A stretch of DNA of 64,000 nt from Sphingomonas sp. HMP6 (GTDB lineage: Bacteria > Pseudomonadota > Alphaproteobacteria > Sphingomonadales > Sphingomonadaceae), in assembly GCF_013374095.1 (NCBI RefSeq), contig NZ_AP022672.1, forward strand, positions 2,931,501-2,995,500. The letters run 5' to 3'. A model generated the notes under the pieces. The model ran no database searches. It saw only the letters and a program-made list of their open reading frames with translations, and was not told the DNA's origin. The position numbers were made by a program, and so were the translations under genes. Each line of letters starts with the position of its first letter. Positions within the stretch are counted from its first letter, which is position 1. Positions 1,679 to 57,431 of the stretch are shown one piece after another.

Positions 1679-1753
1679 CCGTTCGTTTCGAGCGAAGTCG
1701 AGAAACCTTGCACGCGGGCGCTATGGTTTCTCGACTTCGCTCGAAACGAACGG
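1679..1753. repeat. Inverted intergenic repeat, type B copy 1
   Basis: Two 29-nt arms (1679-1707 and 1725-1753) are exact reverse complements around a 17-nt spacer. Each arm has the form CCGTTCG, TTTC, a 12-nt GAGC...GTCGA core, GAAA, C, so an arm can also fold on itself through TTTC/GAAA. The element sits between the divergent ppiB and mgtE genes. A second copy lies at 16229-16307 and a single arm at 54718-54746. Confidence 0.92.
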
Positions 1754-16228: not shown

Positions 16229-16307
16229 CCGTTCGTTTCGAGCGAAGTTGAGAAACCACAGCCGCGCGCGCTTGCCCAGATTTCTCGACTTCGCTCGAAA
16301 CGAACGG
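16229..16307. repeat. Inverted intergenic repeat, type B copy 2
   Basis: Arms 16229-16255 and 16281-16307 are reverse complements with one mismatch (T at 16249) around a 25-nt spacer. Sequence and arm structure are the same as in the copy at 1679-1753. It lies between the AsmA-family gene and the TauE/SafE gene, both on the minus strand. Confidence 0.9.
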
Positions 16308-18845: not shown

Positions 18846-19211
18846 ATGGCACGCGTAAAACGGGGTGTAACCACCCACGCAAAGCACAAGCGGATCCTCA
18901 ATCTGGCGAAGGGCTATTATGGCCGTCGCAAGAACACGATCCGTATCGCCCGTCAGGCCGTCGAAAAGGCCGGACAATATGCATATCGCGATCGCAAGGT
19001 CCGCAAGCGCAACTTCCGCGCTTTGTGGATTCAGCGCATCAACGCCGCTGTCCGCGCCGAGGGTCTGACCTACGGCGTGTTCATGCACGGCCTGAAGCTC
19101 GCCGGTGTCCAGCTCGACCGCAAGGTCCTGGCCGATCTGGCGATGCACGAAGCTGGCGCGTTTAGCGGCATCATCGCGCAGGCGAAGGCGGCTCTGCCCC
19201 AGGCTGCCTGA
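18846..19211 (+). CDS. rplT: 50S ribosomal protein L20
   Basis: A 121-residue ribosomal protein. The basic N-terminal arm [18 protein letters not shown] and the globular part with [21 protein letters not shown] and YGVFMHGL are characteristic L20. It binds 23S rRNA during early 50S assembly. A GGAGGA site precedes ATG 18846. A strong terminator follows at 19232-19267, separating it from pheS. Confidence 0.97.
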
Positions 19212-19288: not shown

Positions 19289-19378
19289 CCGTTCGGGCTG
19301 AGCTTGTCGAAGCCCTGTTCTTCCTTCTAACCGCATCCTCGAAGCAGTACGGCGCTTCGACAAGCTCAGCGCGAACGG
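19289..19378. repeat. Inverted intergenic repeat, type A copy 1
   Basis: Arms 19289-19313 and 19354-19378 are reverse complements with one mismatch. Each reads CCGTTCG, a tetranucleotide, GAGCTTGTCGA, and the complement of that tetranucleotide: GGCT/AGCC in the left arm, CGCT/AGCG in the right. The right arm ends 8 nt before the pheS start codon. Related copies are at 39292, 49895 and 54617. Confidence 0.9.
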
Positions 19379-19385
19379 TGATTGA

Positions 19386-20462
19386 ATGTCTGACCTGGAC
19401 CAGCTGCAACGTGATTTGATGGCGGCGATCGACGCTGCCGCCAGCCTTGACGGGCTCGAATCCATCCGCGTCACCGCGCTCGGCAAGGCCGGCAGCATTA
19501 CCGCGCTCCTCAAGACCCTCGGCGGCATGTCACCCGATGCGCGGCAGGTACAAGGCCCCCGTATCCAAAGCCTGCGCGAGGCGGTGACCACTGCAATCGC
19601 CGCGCGGAAAAGCGCGCTCGACCGCGCCGAACTCGACGCCCGCCTCGCCCGCGAAACGCTCGACATGACGCTCCCCGCCGCAGCCGCGCCGCAGGGCTCG
19701 GTTCACCCGGTCAGCCAGGTGATGGACGAACTCGCCGAGATCTTCGCCGATCTCGGCTTCGCGGTCGCGACCGGTCCGGAGATCGAGGATCAGTGGCACA
19801 ATTTCACCGCGCTCAACATGCCAGAAAGCCACCCGGCGCGGGCGATGCACGACACCTTCTACTTGCAGGCCGCCGACGGCGAGGAGGCGAAGGTGCTGCG
19901 CACCCACACCTCCCCCGTCCAGATCCGCACGATGATGAGCCAGGAACCCCCAATCCGCATCATCGCGCCGGGCCGCGTCTATCGCTCGGATTGGGACGCG
20001 ACGCACACGCCCATGTTCCACCAGATCGAAGGCCTTGTGATCGACAAGGGCATCACGCTCGGCCATCTCAAATGGACGCTGGAGACGTTCCTCAAGGCGT
20101 TCTTTGAGCGCGACGACATCGTGCTCCGCCTCCGCCCAAGCTATTTCCCCTTCACCGAACCTTCGGCCGAGGTCGATGTCGGCTGGACGATGGAAAAGGG
20201 CCGCCGCACGCTCGGCGGCTCGGAGGGCTGGATGGAATTGCTCGGCTCCGGCATGGTCCACCCCAAGGTGATCGAAGCGTGCGGGCTCGATCCCAACGAA
20301 TGGCAGGGCTTCGCCTTTGGCGTCGGGGTCGATCGGCTCGCGATGCTCAAATACGGCATGGACGATCTGCGCCCCTTCTTCGAAGGCGACGCGCGCTGGC
20401 TGAAGCATTACGGCTTCTCCGGCCTCGACGTGCCCACGCTCAGCCAGGGAGTTGGCGCATGA
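19386..20462 (+). CDS. pheS: Phenylalanyl-tRNA synthetase alpha subunit
   Basis: A 358-residue class II synthetase subunit. The N-terminal coiled-coil (residues 1-85) precedes the catalytic core. Motif-like segments are [49 protein letters not shown] (motif 2) and [22 protein letters not shown] (motif 3). With PheT it charges tRNA-Phe as an alpha2beta2 enzyme. Its stop overlaps the pheT start (ATGA). The ribosome-binding region is unusual: a type A repeat arm ends at 19378, leaving only a weak GGTGA as a candidate Shine-Dalgarno. Confidence 0.97.
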
Positions 20463-39291: not shown

Positions 39292-39381
39292 CCGTTCGCC
39301 CTGAGCTTGTCGAAGGGCCAGTGTAGATAGCGCGCGTATCGGTTGTTGCAGACCGTGCTTCGACAGGCTCAGCACGAACGG
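39292..39381. repeat. Inverted intergenic repeat, type A copy 2
   Basis: Arms 39292-39315 and 39358-39381 pair with a few mismatches. Left arm stem CCCT/AGGG, right arm stem TGCT/AGCA, both around GAGC(C/T)TGTCGA. The right arm lies inside the 3' end of the threonine aldolase gene and supplies its last codons and stop. Confidence 0.9.
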
Positions 39382-40385
39382 GACGGGAGATTTGCGATCG
39401 CGTCGGCGAGCGGGCGGATGTCGGCGGGCGACTGATTCCACGAGATCACCAGCCGTGCCTCGCCCGGGCCCCAGTCGTAGAAATCGAAGCCGAGCGCGCG
39501 CAACTGCGCCGCCTCGGCCGCGGTCACGCGCAGGAACACTTCGTTCGCCTCGACGGGATTGACCAGACGCGACCCTGCGGCCTGCGCCAGTAGCGCCGCC
39601 CCGGCATTGGCGTTGCGGCCGAGATCAAGCCACAAATCACCCTCCAGCATCGCGAGGAGCTGCGCCGCGAGATAGCGTCCCTTCGAGAGCAGCAGTCCGG
39701 CGCGCTTGCGGCGATAAAGAGTCGCGGCGGCGAGTTCGGGTTTGAAGAAGATCAGCGCCTCGGCGCTCATCCCGCCATTCTTGACGAAGCCGAAGCTGAG
39801 CGCATCGACTCCGCCGCGCCACGTCACGTCAGCTGGAGCACAGTCGAGATGCGCGACGGCATTGGCGAAGCGCGCGCCGTCCATGTGCAGGCCAAGGCCG
39901 CGTTGCTTCGCCAGATGCCCGATCGCGGCGACGTCATCGGGGGTGTAGACCAGCCCGTATTCGGTCGCGTTGGTGATTGAGATGGCGTGAGGCTGAACTT
40001 GGTGCACGTCGTTGCGGGTGGCATCGAGCACCGCCGCAATCGTCGCCGGCGTCAGCTTCGCGCCAGCCCCTTCGGCCAGCAACAGCTTCGCACCGTGCGT
40101 ATAGAATTCGGGCGCGCCGCCTTCGTCATTCTGGATATGCGCGTCGCGGTGACAGACGATCGCGCCGTGCGGCGGGCACATCGCCGCCAGCGCCAAGCAA
40201 TTGGCGGCGGTGCCAGAGGGAACCCACAAGGCGCGCACTTCGGTTTGGAACAGCTCGGAGAAGCGCGCGTCGAGCTGTTTGCTCCAGCCGTCGCCGTCAT
40301 AGGCGGTGTCAAGGACGTTGGCATCACCCAGCGCGGCCAGCACGGCCGGGTGGACGGGGGCGGCATTGTCGGAGAAGAAGCGCAT
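39369..40385 (-). CDS. ltaE: Low-specificity L-threonine aldolase
   Basis: A 338-residue PLP enzyme that splits L-threonine or allo-threonine into glycine and acetaldehyde. MRFFSDNAAPVHPAVLAAL at the start, ALWVPSGTAANCLAL, HMDGARFANAVAHL with the PLP aspartate, and LSFGFVKNGGMSAEA with the Schiff-base lysine are typical. The last residues SRSC and the TGA stop at 39369-39371 are encoded by the right arm of a type A repeat; without it the protein would end differently. It lies 42 nt downstream of the PBP1A gene. Confidence 0.92.
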   Translation of the reverse strand: MRFFSDNAAPVHPAVLAALGDANVLDTAYDGDGWSKQLDARFSELFQTEVRALWVPSGTAANCLALAAMCPPHGAIVCHRDAHIQNDEGGAPEFYTHGAKLLLAEGAGAKLTPATIAAVLDATRNDVHQVQPHAISITNATEYGLVYTPDDVAAIGHLAKQRGLGLHMDGARFANAVAHLDCAPADVTWRGGVDALSFGFVKNGGMSAEALIFFKPELAAATLYRRKRAGLLLSKGRYLAAQLLAMLEGDLWLDLGRNANAGAALLAQAAGSRLVNPVEANEVFLRVTAAEAAQLRALGFDFYDWGPGEARLVISWNQSPADIRPLADAIANLPSRSC

Positions 40386-47842: not shown

Positions 47843-49195
47843 TCATGGTCCCGTGGTGCGCAAGTTGAGCGCGATGGATCGGAACAGCGCGGCATCGGGA
47901 CAGGCGCTTGCGAAGGCGATGCGGATGCGGCTGGTGGTTTCGACGACGCGCGCGGCGACCTTGAGCAGCCGCAGGCGGATGGTCGCGAACTCGGCGGTGC
48001 GGAGCGTGGCGGTTGCGGGCATAGCGTGCCGCACGGCCCACATCAGCCAGTAGGCGGCGGTGTGAAGGATGAGCCGCATCTGATTGGCGTTGGCCGAGCA
48101 GCAGGAGGTTCGGTCGCTCTTCAGCTGCGTTTTATGCAGCTTGATCAAGTTTTCCGCCTGGCCGCGGGCGCAGTAAAGCGTGTCATAGATCCGTTCAGCG
48201 CTGCCCTCGGCAAGCGAGGTGACAACGAGGCGGATGTCGAGGCCGAGGCTGCTCGCCTCGATGCGAGCAACGACGCGACGTTCGGTATTCCCCCAGGTTT
48301 TCGCAGCGTAGCGCGTCTCTGCGTAACGCCTTAGTTCGACCAGTCCCTGCAATGCCCGGTCGGTCGCGCAGGCATCGCCTTCCCGAACGATGACGGGATC
48401 GGCGTGGAGCGTGCGGTTGCCGGGCAGCCCGAAGATGTAGTCGATTCCGTTCGCCTCGCACCAGGCCATCGGCTCTGGCCGACCGTAATGACCATCGCCG
48501 CGCAGCGTGATCCGGGTATCGGGCCAGTGGCGACGGATACGTCGCACGAGCCGGCGAACATGGCCGGCGACTTCCTTGCCCGACGGCGTTTTGCCGGTGC
48601 GCAGCAGCATCGCAACCGGCCGCCCGGTAGCGGTGTCGTAGACATGGATCGGCAGGAAGCAGCGCTCGCCGTAGTGGCCGTTCCAGAAAGAGAGCTGCTG
48701 CGCGCCGTGTACGACGTCGACGGTATCATCGATGTCGAGCGTCACCGCCGCAGGTGGCACGGGGTAGCTCGCGCAATAAAGGTCGACCAGCGTACCGGTC
48801 AGACGGATCAACTCGCGCGTAGTCGGCGCGTTTTCCCACCGGCTCATCGTCGGCTGGCTGGCCAGCCCGAACGGATCACCCGGCAGTTTGCCGAGCGCCA
48901 GCTTGAACCCTGGATCATGCCGCAGGGCGTCGAGATCATTGGCGTCTTCATACCCACACGAGATCGCGAGCATGCGGGCGCGCAAGATGTCGGCGACCCG
49001 GTGGATCACCCGACCCTGATCGCGCGGATCAGCGATGCAGGCGGCGAGCCGATCCGCGATCCCCAACCGCCGCTCGGCCTGTGCGAGCAGTAGCACGCCG
49101 CCGTCCGACGTCAGCCGACCGCCGTCGAACGCGGCGGTGATTTTTCGACCACGAATGGCTGGGAAGGTGAAGGAGAACCCACTATCGTCGGCCAT
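47843..49195 (-). CDS. IS1380-family transposase
   Basis: A 450-residue DDE transposase. The N-terminus reads FPAIRGRKITAAFDGGRLTSDGG, typical of the family. Likely catalytic acidic residues are in TLDIDDTVDVVHG, TLRGDGHYGRPE and the region CARGQAENLIKLHKTQLKSDR. The frame is intact at the usual length of about 450, so the enzyme is probably functional. The start ATG at 49195 lies about 120 nt inside the right end of the element. Confidence 0.96.
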   Translation of the reverse strand: MADDSGFSFTFPAIRGRKITAAFDGGRLTSDGGVLLLAQAERRLGIADRLAACIADPRDQGRVIHRVADILRARMLAISCGYEDANDLDALRHDPGFKLALGKLPGDPFGLASQPTMSRWENAPTTRELIRLTGTLVDLYCASYPVPPAAVTLDIDDTVDVVHGAQQLSFWNGHYGERCFLPIHVYDTATGRPVAMLLRTGKTPSGKEVAGHVRRLVRRIRRHWPDTRITLRGDGHYGRPEPMAWCEANGIDYIFGLPGNRTLHADPVIVREGDACATDRALQGLVELRRYAETRYAAKTWGNTERRVVARIEASSLGLDIRLVVTSLAEGSAERIYDTLYCARGQAENLIKLHKTQLKSDRTSCCSANANQMRLILHTAAYWLMWAVRHAMPATATLRTAEFATIRLRLLKVAARVVETTSRIRIAFASACPDAALFRSIALNLRTTGP

Positions 49196-49894: not shown

Positions 49895-49984
49895 CCGTTC
49901 GCCCTGAGCCTGTCGAAGGGCACCTCTCCGAACGCGATCGGCTCGCCTGCTGCGAAGCGGCTTCGACAGGTTCAGCCTCAACGG
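49895..49984. repeat. Inverted intergenic repeat, type A copy 3
   Basis: Arms 49895-49918 and 49961-49984 pair imperfectly. The left arm stem is CCCT/AGGG and the right GGCT/AGCC around GAGCCTGTCGA and GAACCTGTCGA. It lies between the IS-disrupted gene and the convergent rlmN, where it could act as a transcript-end hairpin. Confidence 0.9.
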
Positions 49985-53312: not shown

Positions 53313-53471
53313 CTCGCTCAAATGGGCCAAACCTCCCGTTCGCGGGCGTAAATCGGGGGTCGGAGCGCTTGCTCCGGCCCCTTTTATGTTTAAGGAATGA
53401 GACACGGCGAATTGCCTCCGGTGCGCGTGGCGCTGCCGGAGAAACTAAGGGCGGCGGCCCGGGGGAACGAC

Positions 53472-54599
53472 ATGAAGGCGACGATCGAACGCGCGACTCT
53501 GTTGAAGGGATTGAGCCACGTCCAGTCGGTGGTCGAGCGGCGCAACACGATCCCGATCCTGTCCAACGTCCTGATCGAGGCGACGGCGGAGGGTGGCCTG
53601 AAGCTGATGGCGACCGATCTCGATCTGCAGATCAACGAGACGATCGCGGCGGCCGTCGATCAGCCCGGCGCGACGACGGTTTCGGCGCACACGCTGTTCG
53701 ACATTTGTCGCAAGCTGCCCGAGGGGAGCCAGGTCAGCCTGGCCGCCGCAGACGGCAAGATGACGATCATGGCGGGGCGCGCGAAGTTCCAGCTTGGCAC
53801 GCTGCCGCGCGATGATTTCCCGGTGATCGCCGAGGGCGAGCTGCCGGTCAGCTTCGAGCTGCCGGCCGAGACGCTGAAGCAGATCATCGACAAGACGCGC
53901 TTCGCCATCTCAACGGAAGAAACGCGATATTATCTGAACGGCATCTTCTGGCATGTGTCGGACGATGGCGGCGCGAACGGAGCGGGGCCGGTGCTCAAGG
54001 CGGCGGCCACCGACGGCCACCGTCTCGCCCGTATCACGCTGCCGCGCCCCGATGGCGCGGAGGGGATGCCTGACGTGATTATCCCGCGCAAATGCATCGC
54101 GGAATTGCGCAAATTGCTCGACGAGATCGACGGTTCGGTCGGGGTGTCGCTGTCGGCGACTAAGATCCGTTTCGATCTGGGCCAGGCGCTGCTGACCTCC
54201 AAGCTGATCGACGGCACCTTCCCCGATTACAGCCGCGTCATTCCGACCGGCAATGACAAGATCCTCAAGATCGATCCGCGCAGCTTCGAGGAAGGCGTCG
54301 ACCGCGTCTCGACGATTGCGACCGAGAAGACGCGCGCGGTGAAGATGGCGCTCGATCGTGACAAGATCATCCTGTCGGTGACCAGCCCCGAAAACGGCAC
54401 GGCGGCCGAAGAAGTGCCGGGCGAATATACCGCGCTCGGCTTCGAAATCGGCTTCAACAGCCGTTATCTGCTCGACATTCTTGGGCAATTGCACGGCGAC
54501 ACGATCGAGGTCCACCTCGCCGACGCCGCCGCGCCGACGCTGATCCGCGAGAATGACAAATCGGCGGCGCTGTACGTGCTGATGCCGATGCGGGTGTAG
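53472..54599 (+). CDS. dnaN: DNA polymerase III sliding clamp (beta subunit)
   Basis: A 375-residue clamp with three repeated domains: residues 1-125 (MKATIERATLLKGLSHVQSVVERRNTIPILSNV), 126-250 and 251-375, ending LYVLMPMRV, the conserved C-terminal hydrophobic patch region. It encircles DNA and tethers the polymerase. The ATG at 53472 has GGGGG just upstream; an upstream ATG at 53397 would add a non-conserved segment. dnaA and recF are not adjacent. Type A and B repeats follow. Confidence 0.97.
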   Translation: MKATIERATLLKGLSHVQSVVERRNTIPILSNVLIEATAEGGLKLMATDLDLQINETIAAAVDQPGATTVSAHTLFDICRKLPEGSQVSLAAADGKMTIMAGRAKFQLGTLPRDDFPVIAEGELPVSFELPAETLKQIIDKTRFAISTEETRYYLNGIFWHVSDDGGANGAGPVLKAAATDGHRLARITLPRPDGAEGMPDVIIPRKCIAELRKLLDEIDGSVGVSLSATKIRFDLGQALLTSKLIDGTFPDYSRVIPTGNDKILKIDPRSFEEGVDRVSTIATEKTRAVKMALDRDKIILSVTSPENGTAAEEVPGEYTALGFEIGFNSRYLLDILGQLHGDTIEVHLADAAAPTLIRENDKSAALYVLMPMRV

Positions 54600-54616: not shown

Positions 54617-54705
54617 CAGTTCGCCCCGAGCCTGTCGAAGGGCTGCTCTCCGTCAGAGCGCGGTGTGCTTGAGGCACGCACCCCTTCGACAGGCTCAGGG
54701 CCAAC
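54617..54705. repeat. Inverted intergenic repeat, type A copy 4
   Basis: Arms near 54619-54642 and 54683-54705 share GAGCCTGTCGA cores. The right stem is CCCT/AGGG; the left reads CCCC/AGGG, the only arm with a mismatch among eight. It lies between the convergent dnaN and agmatine-deiminase genes. Confidence 0.85.
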
Positions 54706-54717
54706 GGGAAGGGTGCT

Positions 54718-54746
54718 GGTTTCTCGACTTCGCTCGAAACGAACGG
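54718..54746. repeat. Single arm of the type B repeat
   Basis: A lone copy of the type B arm (GGTTTCTCGACTTCGCTCG and onward), identical to 1725-1753, placed 12 nt after the type A element. No partner arm is within about 100 nt. Confidence 0.85.
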
Positions 54747-54774: not shown

Positions 54775-55749
54775 TTACGCCGGGATTTGCTGCGAGATGC
54801 AGTGGAAGCTGCCGCCGCCGGTGAGGATAGCGTCCGCGCGCAGGCCGACCGCAATGCGGTCCGGGAAGAGCCCCTGCACCGCCGCCACGGCCACATCGTC
54901 ATTGGGCGCGCCGTAGAGCGGGACCACCACCGCGGCATTGCCGATGTAGAAGTTCATATAGCTCGCCGGCACGATCTCCTCGTCACGCAGCACGCGGCCG
55001 GGCGAGGGGATGCGAACTACCGCGAGCCCCTCGACCGCACCGGCGGCCTGTGCGGCGCGTTGGTAAACCATCCAATTGGGGTCGTTTTCGGCCGCCTCCG
55101 GGATCGCCAGCACGCCGGGCGCGACGAAACGCGCGAGATTGTCGACATGGCCGTCGGTATGGTCGTGCATCAGCCCGTCGCCCAGCCATAGCACAGCCCC
55201 GAAGCCGAGATCGTCGTGCAGCCGCCGTTCGATCTCCGCCTTCGACAGTGCGGGATTGCGGTTTGGGTTGAGCAGACATTGCTCGGTCGTGACGACGAGG
55301 CCGGTGCCGTCGCCGTCGAGTGCGCCGCCTTCGAGAATCCAGTCGCAGCTTTCGACGTGTAGCCGTTTGCGGCGCGCTAGCCGCAGGCCGATATCGTCGT
55401 CGCCGGGCAGATCATATTTCCCGCCCCAGCCGTTGAAGCCGAAATCGCGCGCGCTGCCGTCGGACAGCAGGATCGGGCCGGTGTCGCGCAGCCAGATGTC
55501 GCCGAACGGCTCGACCACGACATCGGCGACATCGCCTGCCATGCGCTTCGCCGCTTTGGCCGCTTCCTCATCCGCGGCGACCAGAATGACGCGCTCGCCG
55601 CGCCCATCGGCGTGGACCGCGCGGGCAAACGCGGTGACTTCGTCGCGCGCCGGTTCGAGATCGTCCTCCCACAGTTCGGGATGGCTCGGGAAACCGATCC
55701 ACACTGCCTTATGCGGTGCCCATTCGGCGGGGGGGAGGGGGCGGGTCAT
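54775..55749 (-). CDS. aguA: Agmatine deiminase
   Basis: A 324-residue guanidino-group hydrolase that converts agmatine to N-carbamoylputrescine. Family motifs are PPAEWAPHKAVWIGFPSHPE, FGDIWLRDTGPIL, LEGGALDGDGTG, DHTDGHVDN with the catalytic histidine, and the nucleophile cysteine in GGGSFHCISQQ near the C-terminus. The ATG at 55749 shares one base with the upstream M28 peptidase stop (TGATG), implying translational coupling; a GTG at 55752 is less likely. Confidence 0.95.
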   Translation of the reverse strand: MTRPLPPAEWAPHKAVWIGFPSHPELWEDDLEPARDEVTAFARAVHADGRGERVILVAADEEAAKAAKRMAGDVADVVVEPFGDIWLRDTGPILLSDGSARDFGFNGWGGKYDLPGDDDIGLRLARRKRLHVESCDWILEGGALDGDGTGLVVTTEQCLLNPNRNPALSKAEIERRLHDDLGFGAVLWLGDGLMHDHTDGHVDNLARFVAPGVLAIPEAAENDPNWMVYQRAAQAAGAVEGLAVVRIPSPGRVLRDEEIVPASYMNFYIGNAAVVVPLYGAPNDDVAVAAVQGLFPDRIAVGLRADAILTGGGSFHCISQQIPA

Positions 55750-57431
55750 CACTTCGTCCTGGCGTGTGGGGTGTCGCGGTCACGAATGGCGCGGAACTCG
55801 GCAGTCTTGTACCAGTTCGGCCAGGCCAAGCCATCCGCAAGCGCGCGTCCCAGCCCGTAATAGAGCTGCAGATCCTCGACCGCGCCGGACCAATCCCACG
55901 CCGGATTATATTCGTCCTGCGGCTTATGGTAGCGATTCTCGATGTAATCGAGCGTGGCCGCATGCCCCGCAGCTTCCCCGCCGACGCGCAAATCCTCGCC
56001 CGATTCGCCGTAGAACATCGGCACGCCGAGCTTTGCGAACATGAAATGGTCCGAGCGGAAATAGCTGCCGCGTTCGGGGTTGGGCTCGGGCTTCACGACG
56101 CGGCCTTGCGCGGCGACGAGCTTCGCCATCATGTCCTCGAGCTCGGACTTGCCAGCCCCCGTCACCACGAAATCCTTCGCGCGGCCGATGGTGTTGAGCC
56201 CGTCCATGTTCACGCCGCCGACGGTGGTCGCCATTGGGTAGATCGGATGCTCCGCGTAGAAACGCGAGCCGAGTAGGCCGCATTCCTCGCACGTCACCGA
56301 CATGAACACCTGGCTGCGCCGTGCCGGTCCCGCCTTCACGTTCGCCTCGGCCAGCGCGATCAGGCCGGCGGTGCCGCTCGCATTGTCGAGCGCGCCGTTA
56401 CAAATGTCGTCGCCCTTCACCGGGGTGCAGCGACCGAGATGGTCCCAATGCGCGGTGTAGAAGACGTATTCCTTAGGCTTGGTCTTGCCCGGCAGGATGC
56501 CGATCACATTCTTCGACGCCTGGCGCTTGATCGTGTTGCTGAAGCTGACCGACGCCGTCACGCCGAGCGGTACGGCCTTGAAGCCCTTGACCTTGGCACC
56601 GGCACTCAGCGCGTCGAAATCCTGTCCGGCGCTGGCGAACAACGCCTTGGCCTTGGCAAGCTGGATCCAGCCGATCGCGTCGCTTTGATCGGCATGGTCG
56701 CCTTTCTCGTCGAGCTCGAGCTGTGGCCCGGTGTTGCTCGACTGGACCACGCCCCAGCCATAGGCCGCAGGCTCGGCATCGTGGACGATGATCGCGGCGG
56801 CCGCACCCTGCCGCGCGGCTTCCTCATATTTATAGGTCCAGCGGCCGTAATAGGTCATCGCCTTGCCCTCGAACAGGCCGGTCCGCGCAGGGCTTTGCCA
56901 GTCGGGATCGTTGACCAGGATGAGGACGGTCTTGCCCTTCACATCGACCCCGGCATAATCGTTCCAGCCGCGTTCGGGGGCATTGATGCCGTAGCCGACG
57001 AAGACGACCGGGCTGTCCTTCAGCGCGATCGTCGGCGTGACGCGGTAGCTCTTGACCACGACATCGTCGCGATACGCCAGGCTGAGCGGCGTCTTGCCGC
57101 CTGCGATCGCCATCGGCGACACGTTTTCAGCCGTCATTTCGACCAGCGGTACGTCCTGAAACCAGCCGCCGCCCGGCCCGCCTGGATTGCCGGGCTTGAG
57201 CCCCGCCGCCTTGAAGCGCTGGACGAGATATTCGGTGGTTTTCTTTTCGGCCGGGGAAACCGGCTTGCGCCCTTCATAGGCGTTGGAGGAAAGGGTCTTG
57301 GTGACGTCCTTCAAGGTCTGCACCGAAATGGCGGGGGTTGAAGCGGCGCCCTTGGCAGCGCGCGGCGGAGCGGCCTGCGCCGACGTGGCGGTCAGTACGG
57401 CGCCAAAGGCAATCATTCGGAAGATAGTCAT
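55749..57431 (-). CDS. Exported M28-family metallopeptidase with PA domain
   Basis: A 560-residue protein. The signal peptide MTIFRMIAFGAVLTATSAQA precedes a PA insert (PVVFVGYGINAPERGWNDYAG) and an M28 zinc peptidase: TAHWDHLGRC, GALDNASGTAGL, CEECGLLGSRFY with the catalytic glutamate, NMDGLN and RSDHFMFAKLG. It resembles the M28 enzyme at 36000-37613 but has an internal cysteine pair region (TPVKGDDICNG). It trims peptides outside the cytoplasm. It is coupled to aguA by TGATG, and divergent from an exported S9 peptidase 127 nt away. Confidence 0.92.
   Translation of the reverse strand: MTIFRMIAFGAVLTATSAQAAPPRAAKGAASTPAISVQTLKDVTKTLSSNAYEGRKPVSPAEKKTTEYLVQRFKAAGLKPGNPGGPGGGWFQDVPLVEMTAENVSPMAIAGGKTPLSLAYRDDVVVKSYRVTPTIALKDSPVVFVGYGINAPERGWNDYAGVDVKGKTVLILVNDPDWQSPARTGLFEGKAMTYYGRWTYKYEEAARQGAAAAIIVHDAEPAAYGWGVVQSSNTGPQLELDEKGDHADQSDAIGWIQLAKAKALFASAGQDFDALSAGAKVKGFKAVPLGVTASVSFSNTIKRQASKNVIGILPGKTKPKEYVFYTAHWDHLGRCTPVKGDDICNGALDNASGTAGLIALAEANVKAGPARRSQVFMSVTCEECGLLGSRFYAEHPIYPMATTVGGVNMDGLNTIGRAKDFVVTGAGKSELEDMMAKLVAAQGRVVKPEPNPERGSYFRSDHFMFAKLGVPMFYGESGEDLRVGGEAAGHAATLDYIENRYHKPQDEYNPAWDWSGAVEDLQLYYGLGRALADGLAWPNWYKTAEFRAIRDRDTPHARTK

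Follow-up and report, generated by a model that had tools for sequence, protein, structure and literature searches.

The window, the whole 64,000-nucleotide stretch analysed here (G000:C1:2931501-2995500 of a single-contig 3.64-Mb genome), contains four inverted hairpin repeats that are probably non-autonomous, REPIN-like elements served by a GIY-YIG nuclease. Repeats of the same kind flank GIY-YIG genes in this and related genomes, and from this association we infer mobilisation. In addition, it appears fairly likely that two GIY-YIG subfamilies are dedicated mobilisers of the CCGTTCG-tagged and the CGTC-tagged (including Neisseria dRS3) REP superfamilies, with matched enzyme and repeat types and with neither HUH nor DDE chemistry.

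Anatomy of the elements

A type A arm consists of the tag CCGTTCG, a 4-bp stem and an 11-base loop. The window holds eight such arms in four elements of ~90 bp, together with arms of type B, the repeat found at other GIY-YIG genes.

19289..19378, no strand assigned: element 1, between rplT (18846-19211) and pheS (19386-20462), neighbours identified by Pfam
19289-19314: element 1, left arm, tag CCGTTCG, stem GGCT/AGCC
19353-19378, minus strand: element 1, right arm, stem CGCT/AGCG
39292..39381, no strand assigned: element 2, with left arm at 39292-39317, stem CCCT/AGGG
39356-39381, minus strand: element 2, right arm, stem TGCT/AGCA
49895..49984, no strand assigned: element 3, with left arm at 49895-49920, stem CCCT/AGGG
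49959-49984, minus strand: element 3, right arm, stem GGCT/AGCC, loop GAACCTGTCGA, tag CCGTTGA
54617..54707, no strand assigned: element 4, with left arm at 54617-54642, tag CAGTTCG, stem CCCC/AGGG (broken)
54682-54707, minus strand: element 4, right arm, tag CCGTTGG (54701-54707), stem CCCT/AGGG
1679..1753, no strand assigned: type B pair, tag CCGTTCG, loop GAGCGAAGTCGA, stem TTTC/GAAA in both arms
16229..16307, no strand assigned: type B pair, stem TTTC/GAAA in both arms, left loop GAGCGAAGTTGA
54720..54746, minus strand: single type B arm, adjoining element 4

Reading all eight arms bears out the preliminary description of four type A inverted repeats, and the tetranucleotides match its listing. 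Most of its ends and loops stand as well, with two amendments. Element 4 ends at 54707, not at 54705, and the loop form GAGCYTGTCGA holds except in the right arm of element 3, which has one loop mismatch and the altered tag. No target-site duplication was seen by eye beside the four elements, and a clean empty site was likewise not found there.

The stop codon of a Beta_elim_lyase gene (window 39369-40385, minus strand) lies inside element 2, and the end of this gene differs in three element-free relatives. A DDE_Tnp_1_4 transposase gene (window 47843-49195, minus strand) is located near element 3. Element 4 and its adjoining type B arm lie between the gene for the DNA polymerase III beta subunit (53397-54599, plus strand) and a peptidyl-arginine deiminase family gene (54775-55752, minus strand). 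Between rplT and element 1 there is a separate terminator-like hairpin, read from the sequence by eye.

Stem covariation across the genome

The 11-base core GAGCYTGTCGAAG occurs 158 times (84 + 74) as an exact match in the genome, and the pattern read backwards occurs five times (2 + 3). Stretches round 138 of the 158 cores gave 144 arms with an exact core. One untagged, self-complementary arm (CCGG/CCGG) was dropped, and nearly all of the 143 arms kept carry the tag CCGTTCG. The two tetranucleotides are fully complementary in 123 of the 143 arms, whereas 2000 shuffles of the 3' side gave a mean of 47.1 and a maximum of 62. Counted by cell, 550 positions are Watson-Crick pairs, 5 are G-T and 17 are neither. 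The tetranucleotide partners therefore do change together, as had been proposed from the window; independent variation, which would contradict the proposal, was looked for and found neither in the 143 arms nor in 45 distinct arm sequences from this genome and order-level relatives.

The step from compensatory change to a selected fold stands only in part. The stems co-vary within arms, but they do so mainly as three inherited haplotypes, not as many independent compensations: CCCT/AGGG (63 arms), GGCT/AGCC (32) and TGCT/AGCA (24) account for 119 of the 143 arms. Thus, stem variation within the genome is mainly the inheritance of three stem types. Among the other 24 arms, four are compensated (TCCT/AGGA twice, GCCT/AGGC and CGCT/AGCG) and 20 are not fully Watson-Crick, so there is no sign of ongoing selection on each copy. 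Over longer times the hairpin has been kept, and the simplest explanation is that it is needed for propagation.

Among 96 tagged arms from order-level relatives, 73 pair completely; these 96 are the arms with a tag-like prefix among 150 listed, selected by visual inspection of the prefix without regard to the stem. They add the stems TGGT/ACCA (23), TCCT/AGGA (12), CGCT/AGCG (3) and others. For the 45 distinct arm sequences the covariation score is 0.555, compared with 0.165 (sd 0.032) after shuffling and at most 0.337 after sliding, although relatedness alone can raise such scores. Pairing cells amount to 85.6% versus 63.0% in shuffles of the same 45 sequences, and their two-sided changes, found in three pairs, are not in excess of the shuffles (2.8).

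Some arms have altered loops. At ~645858 and ~1634557 of this genome, outside the window, the same longer palindrome is located inside the loops of two arms that differ in their stems (TGCT and CCCT), which looks like targeting of such loops by another element. At L114, L177, L191, L265 and ~700827 of this genome, some arms retain the tag and the TGTCGA side, and the rest of the loop is swapped for a longer hairpin, e.g. CCCGGACTTGATCCGGG. The site at ~700827 has a plain arm in one genome and an altered-loop arm in the other.

Distribution and orthologous sites

The number of type A cores ranges from 0 to 158 across 73 genomes of the same genus. For orthologous sites, 40 site-locus pairs at 33 sites of this genome were aligned to G062 or G031, with 20 of the 26 planned stretches covered for G031. 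Where arms are present, the stem type is mostly kept and some differ; at four sites, one or more relatives lack a type A arm. Element 2 is without any arm at the orthologous place in G062, G031 and G022. The right arm of element 1, CGCT/AGCG here, is TGCT/AGCA in its G031 ortholog with a recognisable spacer, which makes one matched double change. Another matched change, at 2851391 against G062, has a poorly matching spacer and was not counted.

No exact empty site was found among the orthologous sites compared. At 556624 an apparently clean empty site was set aside because the gap takes the flank too and no boundary can be drawn. About five loci seemed inverted relative to G062, but the spacers compared aligned poorly, so inversion in place explains these loci no better than independent insertion or arm turnover does.

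Heterotypic dimers and predicted folding

The 143 arms include 58 inverted dimers, and these are mostly built from unlike arms. Exactly CCCT with GGCT or TGCT is joined in 47 of the 58, and CCCT with CCCT in two. When arms are classed by the presence or absence of CC at stem positions 2-3, 52 of the 58 dimers are mixed, compared with a shuffled mean of 29 and a maximum of 44. Stem positions match within their own arm in 96% of cases and with the other arm of the dimer in 52%.

Energy models favour a long arm-to-arm hairpin. With DNA parameters the four elements reach -22.6 to -34.5 kcal/mol, and RNA parameters agree. Whole elements have a better predicted fold than shuffles, whereas two single arms, at -3.7 and -3.0 kcal/mol, fold no better than shuffled sequence. 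Despite its favourable energy, the long hairpin was rejected as the conserved structure because the arm statistics given above oppose it.

A GIY-YIG gene bracketed by arms

Reading of open reading frames near unusual arm arrangements revealed a gene for a 130-aa protein at G000:C1:2303386-2303778, outside the window, which lies between era and rnc and is flanked by arms. On each side of the gene an inward arm lies next to it and an outer arm beyond. The product matches PF01541 (E 1.9e-17) and, by sequence, the UPF0213 structures 1zg2 and 1ywl; no NCBIfam model matched it. The motif residues Tyr, Gly, Thr, Arg, His, Glu and Lys are conserved with YhbQ and YazA or within A1. Judged by these matches, the 130-aa protein is a member of the GIY-YIG family and a predicted nuclease. 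Its reading frame continues through the downstream repeats, giving the tail peptides STGSGRT and VRPEPVEG. Just inside the upstream arm, at least 9 of 12 bases are shared by 13 of 139 other arms; the best value for the downstream arm is 7.

Genes of this subfamily (GIY-1) were searched in 120 genomes including this one; 84 gave a match at E<=0.001, and 30 loci, each from a different genome, were retained. The exact tag is found within 200 bp upstream of 22 of the 30 genes, downstream of 25 and on both sides of 20. The corresponding numbers in 298 shifted control windows are 16, 13 and 1. A test that ignores the repeat sequence, the best ungapped inverted match between 250-bp flanks with a score of at least 14, is positive at 25 of 30 GIY-1 loci versus 0 of 179 controls. 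Several loci without type A or type B (L283, L289 and L290) have longer hairpins whose tag is identical or nearly so. Among four GIY-1-like loci, those of S. parapaucimobilis (type B) and of two Methylobacterium have inverted flanks, and that of S. paeninsulae has none. The Methylobacterium plasmid loci L392 and L393 carry GIY-YIG genes 53-54% identical to GIY-1, flanked by an inverted repeat that begins CTCATCCTGAGGTG and ends in CTCGAAGGAG.

GIY-1 has an in-frame stop in G031 and is split in G033, so repeat copies outlast the gene. As in the comparison of MITEs with their insertion sequence, the small elements share their ends with the GIY-YIG locus of the same genome, where arms bracket the gene, and these bracketing arms suggest that the locus itself may be mobile.

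Repeat type at the gene and type amplified

On at least one side, 13 of the 30 GIY-1 loci have type A flanks, 7 have type B and 10 have neither. The type A pattern, defined without the tag, and the type B pattern, defined with it, differ in strictness. Genomes with an A-flanked gene have 21-158 A cores, B-flanked 0-25, and those with neither 0-27 plus one of 113. Type B counts are 0-106, 10-190 and 0-28 in the same order. Rank tests gave p 1e-5 for type A and 0.0025 for type B, values that ignore relatedness and are descriptive because the flank-type rules were written after the flanks were seen. With type B at the gene, G065 has no A and 190 B copies and G068 has 2 and 163; with type A at the gene, G044 has 139 A and 3 B and G069 has 105 and 0. 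Both types are abundant in G010, G062 and G066. The repeat type at the gene thus agrees with the type amplified, and this holds for most of the 30 related loci.

There are exceptions. No clear GIY-1 hit was obtained in G051 (72 A cores) or G072 (41), and in G060, with 113 A cores, the flanks of the best GIY-1 are of neither type. Within the genus, GIY-1 (E<1e-20) is present in 14 of 16 genomes with at least 30 A cores and in 29 of 57 with fewer, so about half of the genomes poor in A cores nonetheless carry the gene.

GIY-2 and the CGTC-tagged REPs

In several relatives (L135-L141 and others), the rplT-pheS gap, the site of element 1 here, is occupied by another GIY-YIG gene, GIY-2. Hairpins such as GTCATCCCCGCGAAGGCGGGGATCC lie alongside it in the five loci inspected. 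A scan of GTDB contigs with an alignment headed by this gene gave at least 532 relatives, the best 80 of which form the GIY-2 set; six of these lie too near contig ends for the 250-bp flank test. Among the 74 loci left from the best 80 of 532, 54 have inverted flanks with a score of at least 14 and 20 score below it, compared with 6 of 1270 controls reaching 14. Perfect CGTC- or TGTC-tagged hairpins stand on both sides at 35 of these 74 loci versus 3 of 1216 controls. The 35 loci, again from the best 80 of 532, are alpha-, beta-, gamma- and deltaproteobacterial, with one labelled Anaerolineae, one Bacteroidetes and two Neisseria. GIY-2 is therefore a second GIY-YIG subfamily, mainly of Pseudomonadota, flanked by CGTC-tagged REPs.

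Ten named plasmid loci of GIY-2 were chosen from 34 records. Inverted CGTC or TGTC hairpins are present at seven of the ten: A. lipoferum, S. meliloti pSymB, N. aromaticivorans pNL2, Shinella, Sphingobium, Neorhizobium and Aeromonas. PMC3733652 includes A. lipoferum and S. meliloti among the carriers of CGTC repeats. At the Rhizobium CIAT894 locus an inverted match lacking a tag adjoins an IS4-family transposase gene, the Planktothrix locus has TGTCATTCTGAG repeats, and the R. tumorigenes locus has no inverted flanks. On the Planktothrix plasmid (L403, 1486-1770), the GIY-YIG gene amid these repeats has an MmeI-type restriction gene on one side and DISARM drmA on the other. Five plasmid windows of 50 kb around GIY-2 genes contain 0, 0, 0, 0 and 2 copies more than 1 kb from the gene. 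No amplification is seen, and amplification by GIY-2 is thus not supported there. A search for GIY-2 in phages gave no match.

Flanking repeats were also looked for at ten distant UPF0213-type genes, including yhbQ and yazA, chosen from 37 records. None of the ten has inverted repeats, and the flank score is at most 11.

Search for a RAYT-type transposase

The window had also raised the question of an associated RAYT-type transposase, and this association is not borne out. PF01797 (Y1) has no match in this genome, while the same search matches 5 of 14 control genomes and, over the 120 genomes with this one included, 20. The flanks of the 29 Y1 loci listed in relatives are all free of tagged arms. 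In one pair of these loci the exact core occurs, with neither tag nor stem. Within the genus, Y1 is present in 3 of 16 genomes with at least 30 A cores and in 3 of 57 with fewer. As a candidate for an autonomous element between lone arms elsewhere in the genome, one larger inverted pair (1952402 to 1955178) was inspected and set aside; it spans several ORFs.

Proposed mechanism and alternatives

We propose that the four elements are non-autonomous, REPIN-like pairs of inverted hairpin repeats with an unpaired tag, CCGTTCG or a near copy, at their outer ends. Their cognate enzyme would be the small GIY-YIG endonuclease encoded elsewhere in the same genome, and the elements would relate to the nuclease locus as MITEs do to an insertion sequence. 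The nuclease may recognise the tag plus the hairpin, probably in single-stranded or extruded DNA, and cut near the tag, which would start the copying or insertion of elements into intergenic DNA. GIY-YIG enzymes are not known to make a covalent DNA link, so that joining would need host repair or ligation; this is the weakest step of the proposal. A foldable hairpin may be required at each propagation, which would account for old stem types differing only by matched changes while many single copies decay. The inward arms round the gene, the agreement of types and the small elements with like ends fit an autonomous/non-autonomous pair. For the CGTC-tagged REPs, a nuclease of this kind is probably at work too.

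Alternatively, the nuclease may not mobilise the repeats but process REP hairpins, in extruded DNA or in transcripts, and the repeats at its gene would then serve autoregulation or protection. Association alone is no proof of mobilisation, the reading frame of the gene passes through the downstream repeats, and the relative YhbQ is annotated as a DNA damage response exodeoxyribonuclease. However, the arms face inward on both sides, as the ends of an element do, and mobilisation directly predicts the observed match between the repeat type at the gene and the amplified type. We regard a purely processing nuclease as unlikely, while giving it appreciable weight. It is far less likely that the elements are REPINs driven by a RAYT since lost from this genome. 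Their anatomy is REPIN-like, and RAYT losses are reported for REPtrons in the cited part of PMC3733652, but in addition to this genome, 13 of the 16 same-genus genomes with at least 30 cores are without PF01797, and the Y1 loci listed in relatives lack tagged arms.

The preliminary description had suggested a selected, folded structure of RNA or DNA. On this reading the copies would be signals such as terminators or mRNA stabilisers, each kept by the host for its fold. The intergenic sites adjoining housekeeping genes, the stem covariation and the better folding of whole elements are consistent with such a role. The spread in copy number within the genus, the variable presence at orthologous places and the unpaired state of most off-type arms all argue against it, as does the hairpin already present between rplT and element 1, and we consider it very improbable. 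The matched stem changes could also be mutational, arising by template switching in quasi-palindromes with no need for a fold, as the matched double change at one orthologous arm would allow. Such switching should also perfect the palindrome between arms, yet stem positions match their own arm far more often than the partner arm and mixed dimers prevail, and the GIY-YIG association would be left unexplained; template switching is thus hardly credible as the source.

If mobilisation by the GIY-YIG nuclease is right, a common and little explained class of bacterial repeats gains an enzyme, the matched stem changes and the heterodimers can be put to the test, and mobilisation in bacteria is added to the roles of GIY-YIG nucleases. 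Hairpin elements would then spread by a route without HUH or DDE chemistry. Our data name a candidate enzyme for the CGTC REPs and for a further tagged family, with the prediction that the type at the gene is the type amplified. A large class of bacterial repeats may have its missing partner in enzymes of this kind.

Comparison with known systems

GTAG REPs and CGTC REPs were defined by Di Nocera et al. in 2013 (PMC3733652), who distinguished the families CGTC-1 to CGTC-4, with the Neisseria members corresponding to dRS3. In its cited part, that paper found no associated or dedicated transposase genes for CGTC repeats and no obvious explanation for the preference for heterodimers, and makes no mention of GIY-YIG. 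A word search of the text of the RepRanger paper of 2025 (PMC12306157) found no GIY-YIG, nuclease, RAYT or transposase in the part covered. Literature searches outside preprints and most subscription journals gave no link between GIY-YIG and REPs, which is weak evidence of absence, and a text search for the core sequence gave only papers that their listing showed to be unrelated.

In the UPF0213 group, the GIY-YIG proteins YhbQ and YazA belong to the same fold family by sequence and have the core motif residues in common with the protein described here. Unlike GIY-1 and GIY-2, the wider group has no inverted flanking repeats at the ten copies tested. E. coli BIMEs contain Y and Z units, two unlike arms that alternate in one element. 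The dimers of the window also combine unlike arms in one element, with other sequences and another enzyme.

GTAG REPs and REPINs with their RAYT (REPtrons) resemble the present system in their paired inverted hairpins, high copy number, repeats bracketing the partner gene and matched enzyme and repeat types. Their partner is an HUH tyrosine transposase, whereas the likely partner of the window elements is a GIY-YIG nuclease encoded elsewhere in the genome. The window elements share the inverted two-hairpin units and the many copies, and have neither the GTAG tag nor a RAYT. The CGTC REPs are alike in being short, tagged, intergenic hairpins that form inverted dimers, frequently heterodimers, with several types per genome. 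They differ, as described in the cited part of PMC3733652, in their tag CGTC (or TGTC/CCTC), a stem of 8-9 bp, a loop of 4-5 bases and a CCA tail, whereas types A and B have the tag CCGTTCG, a 4-bp stem and a loop of 11-12 bases. Type A departs from the definition of CGTC REPs in tag, stem and loop, and types A and B fall outside the defined families CGTC-1 to -4; they appear to form a sister class with the same way of working.
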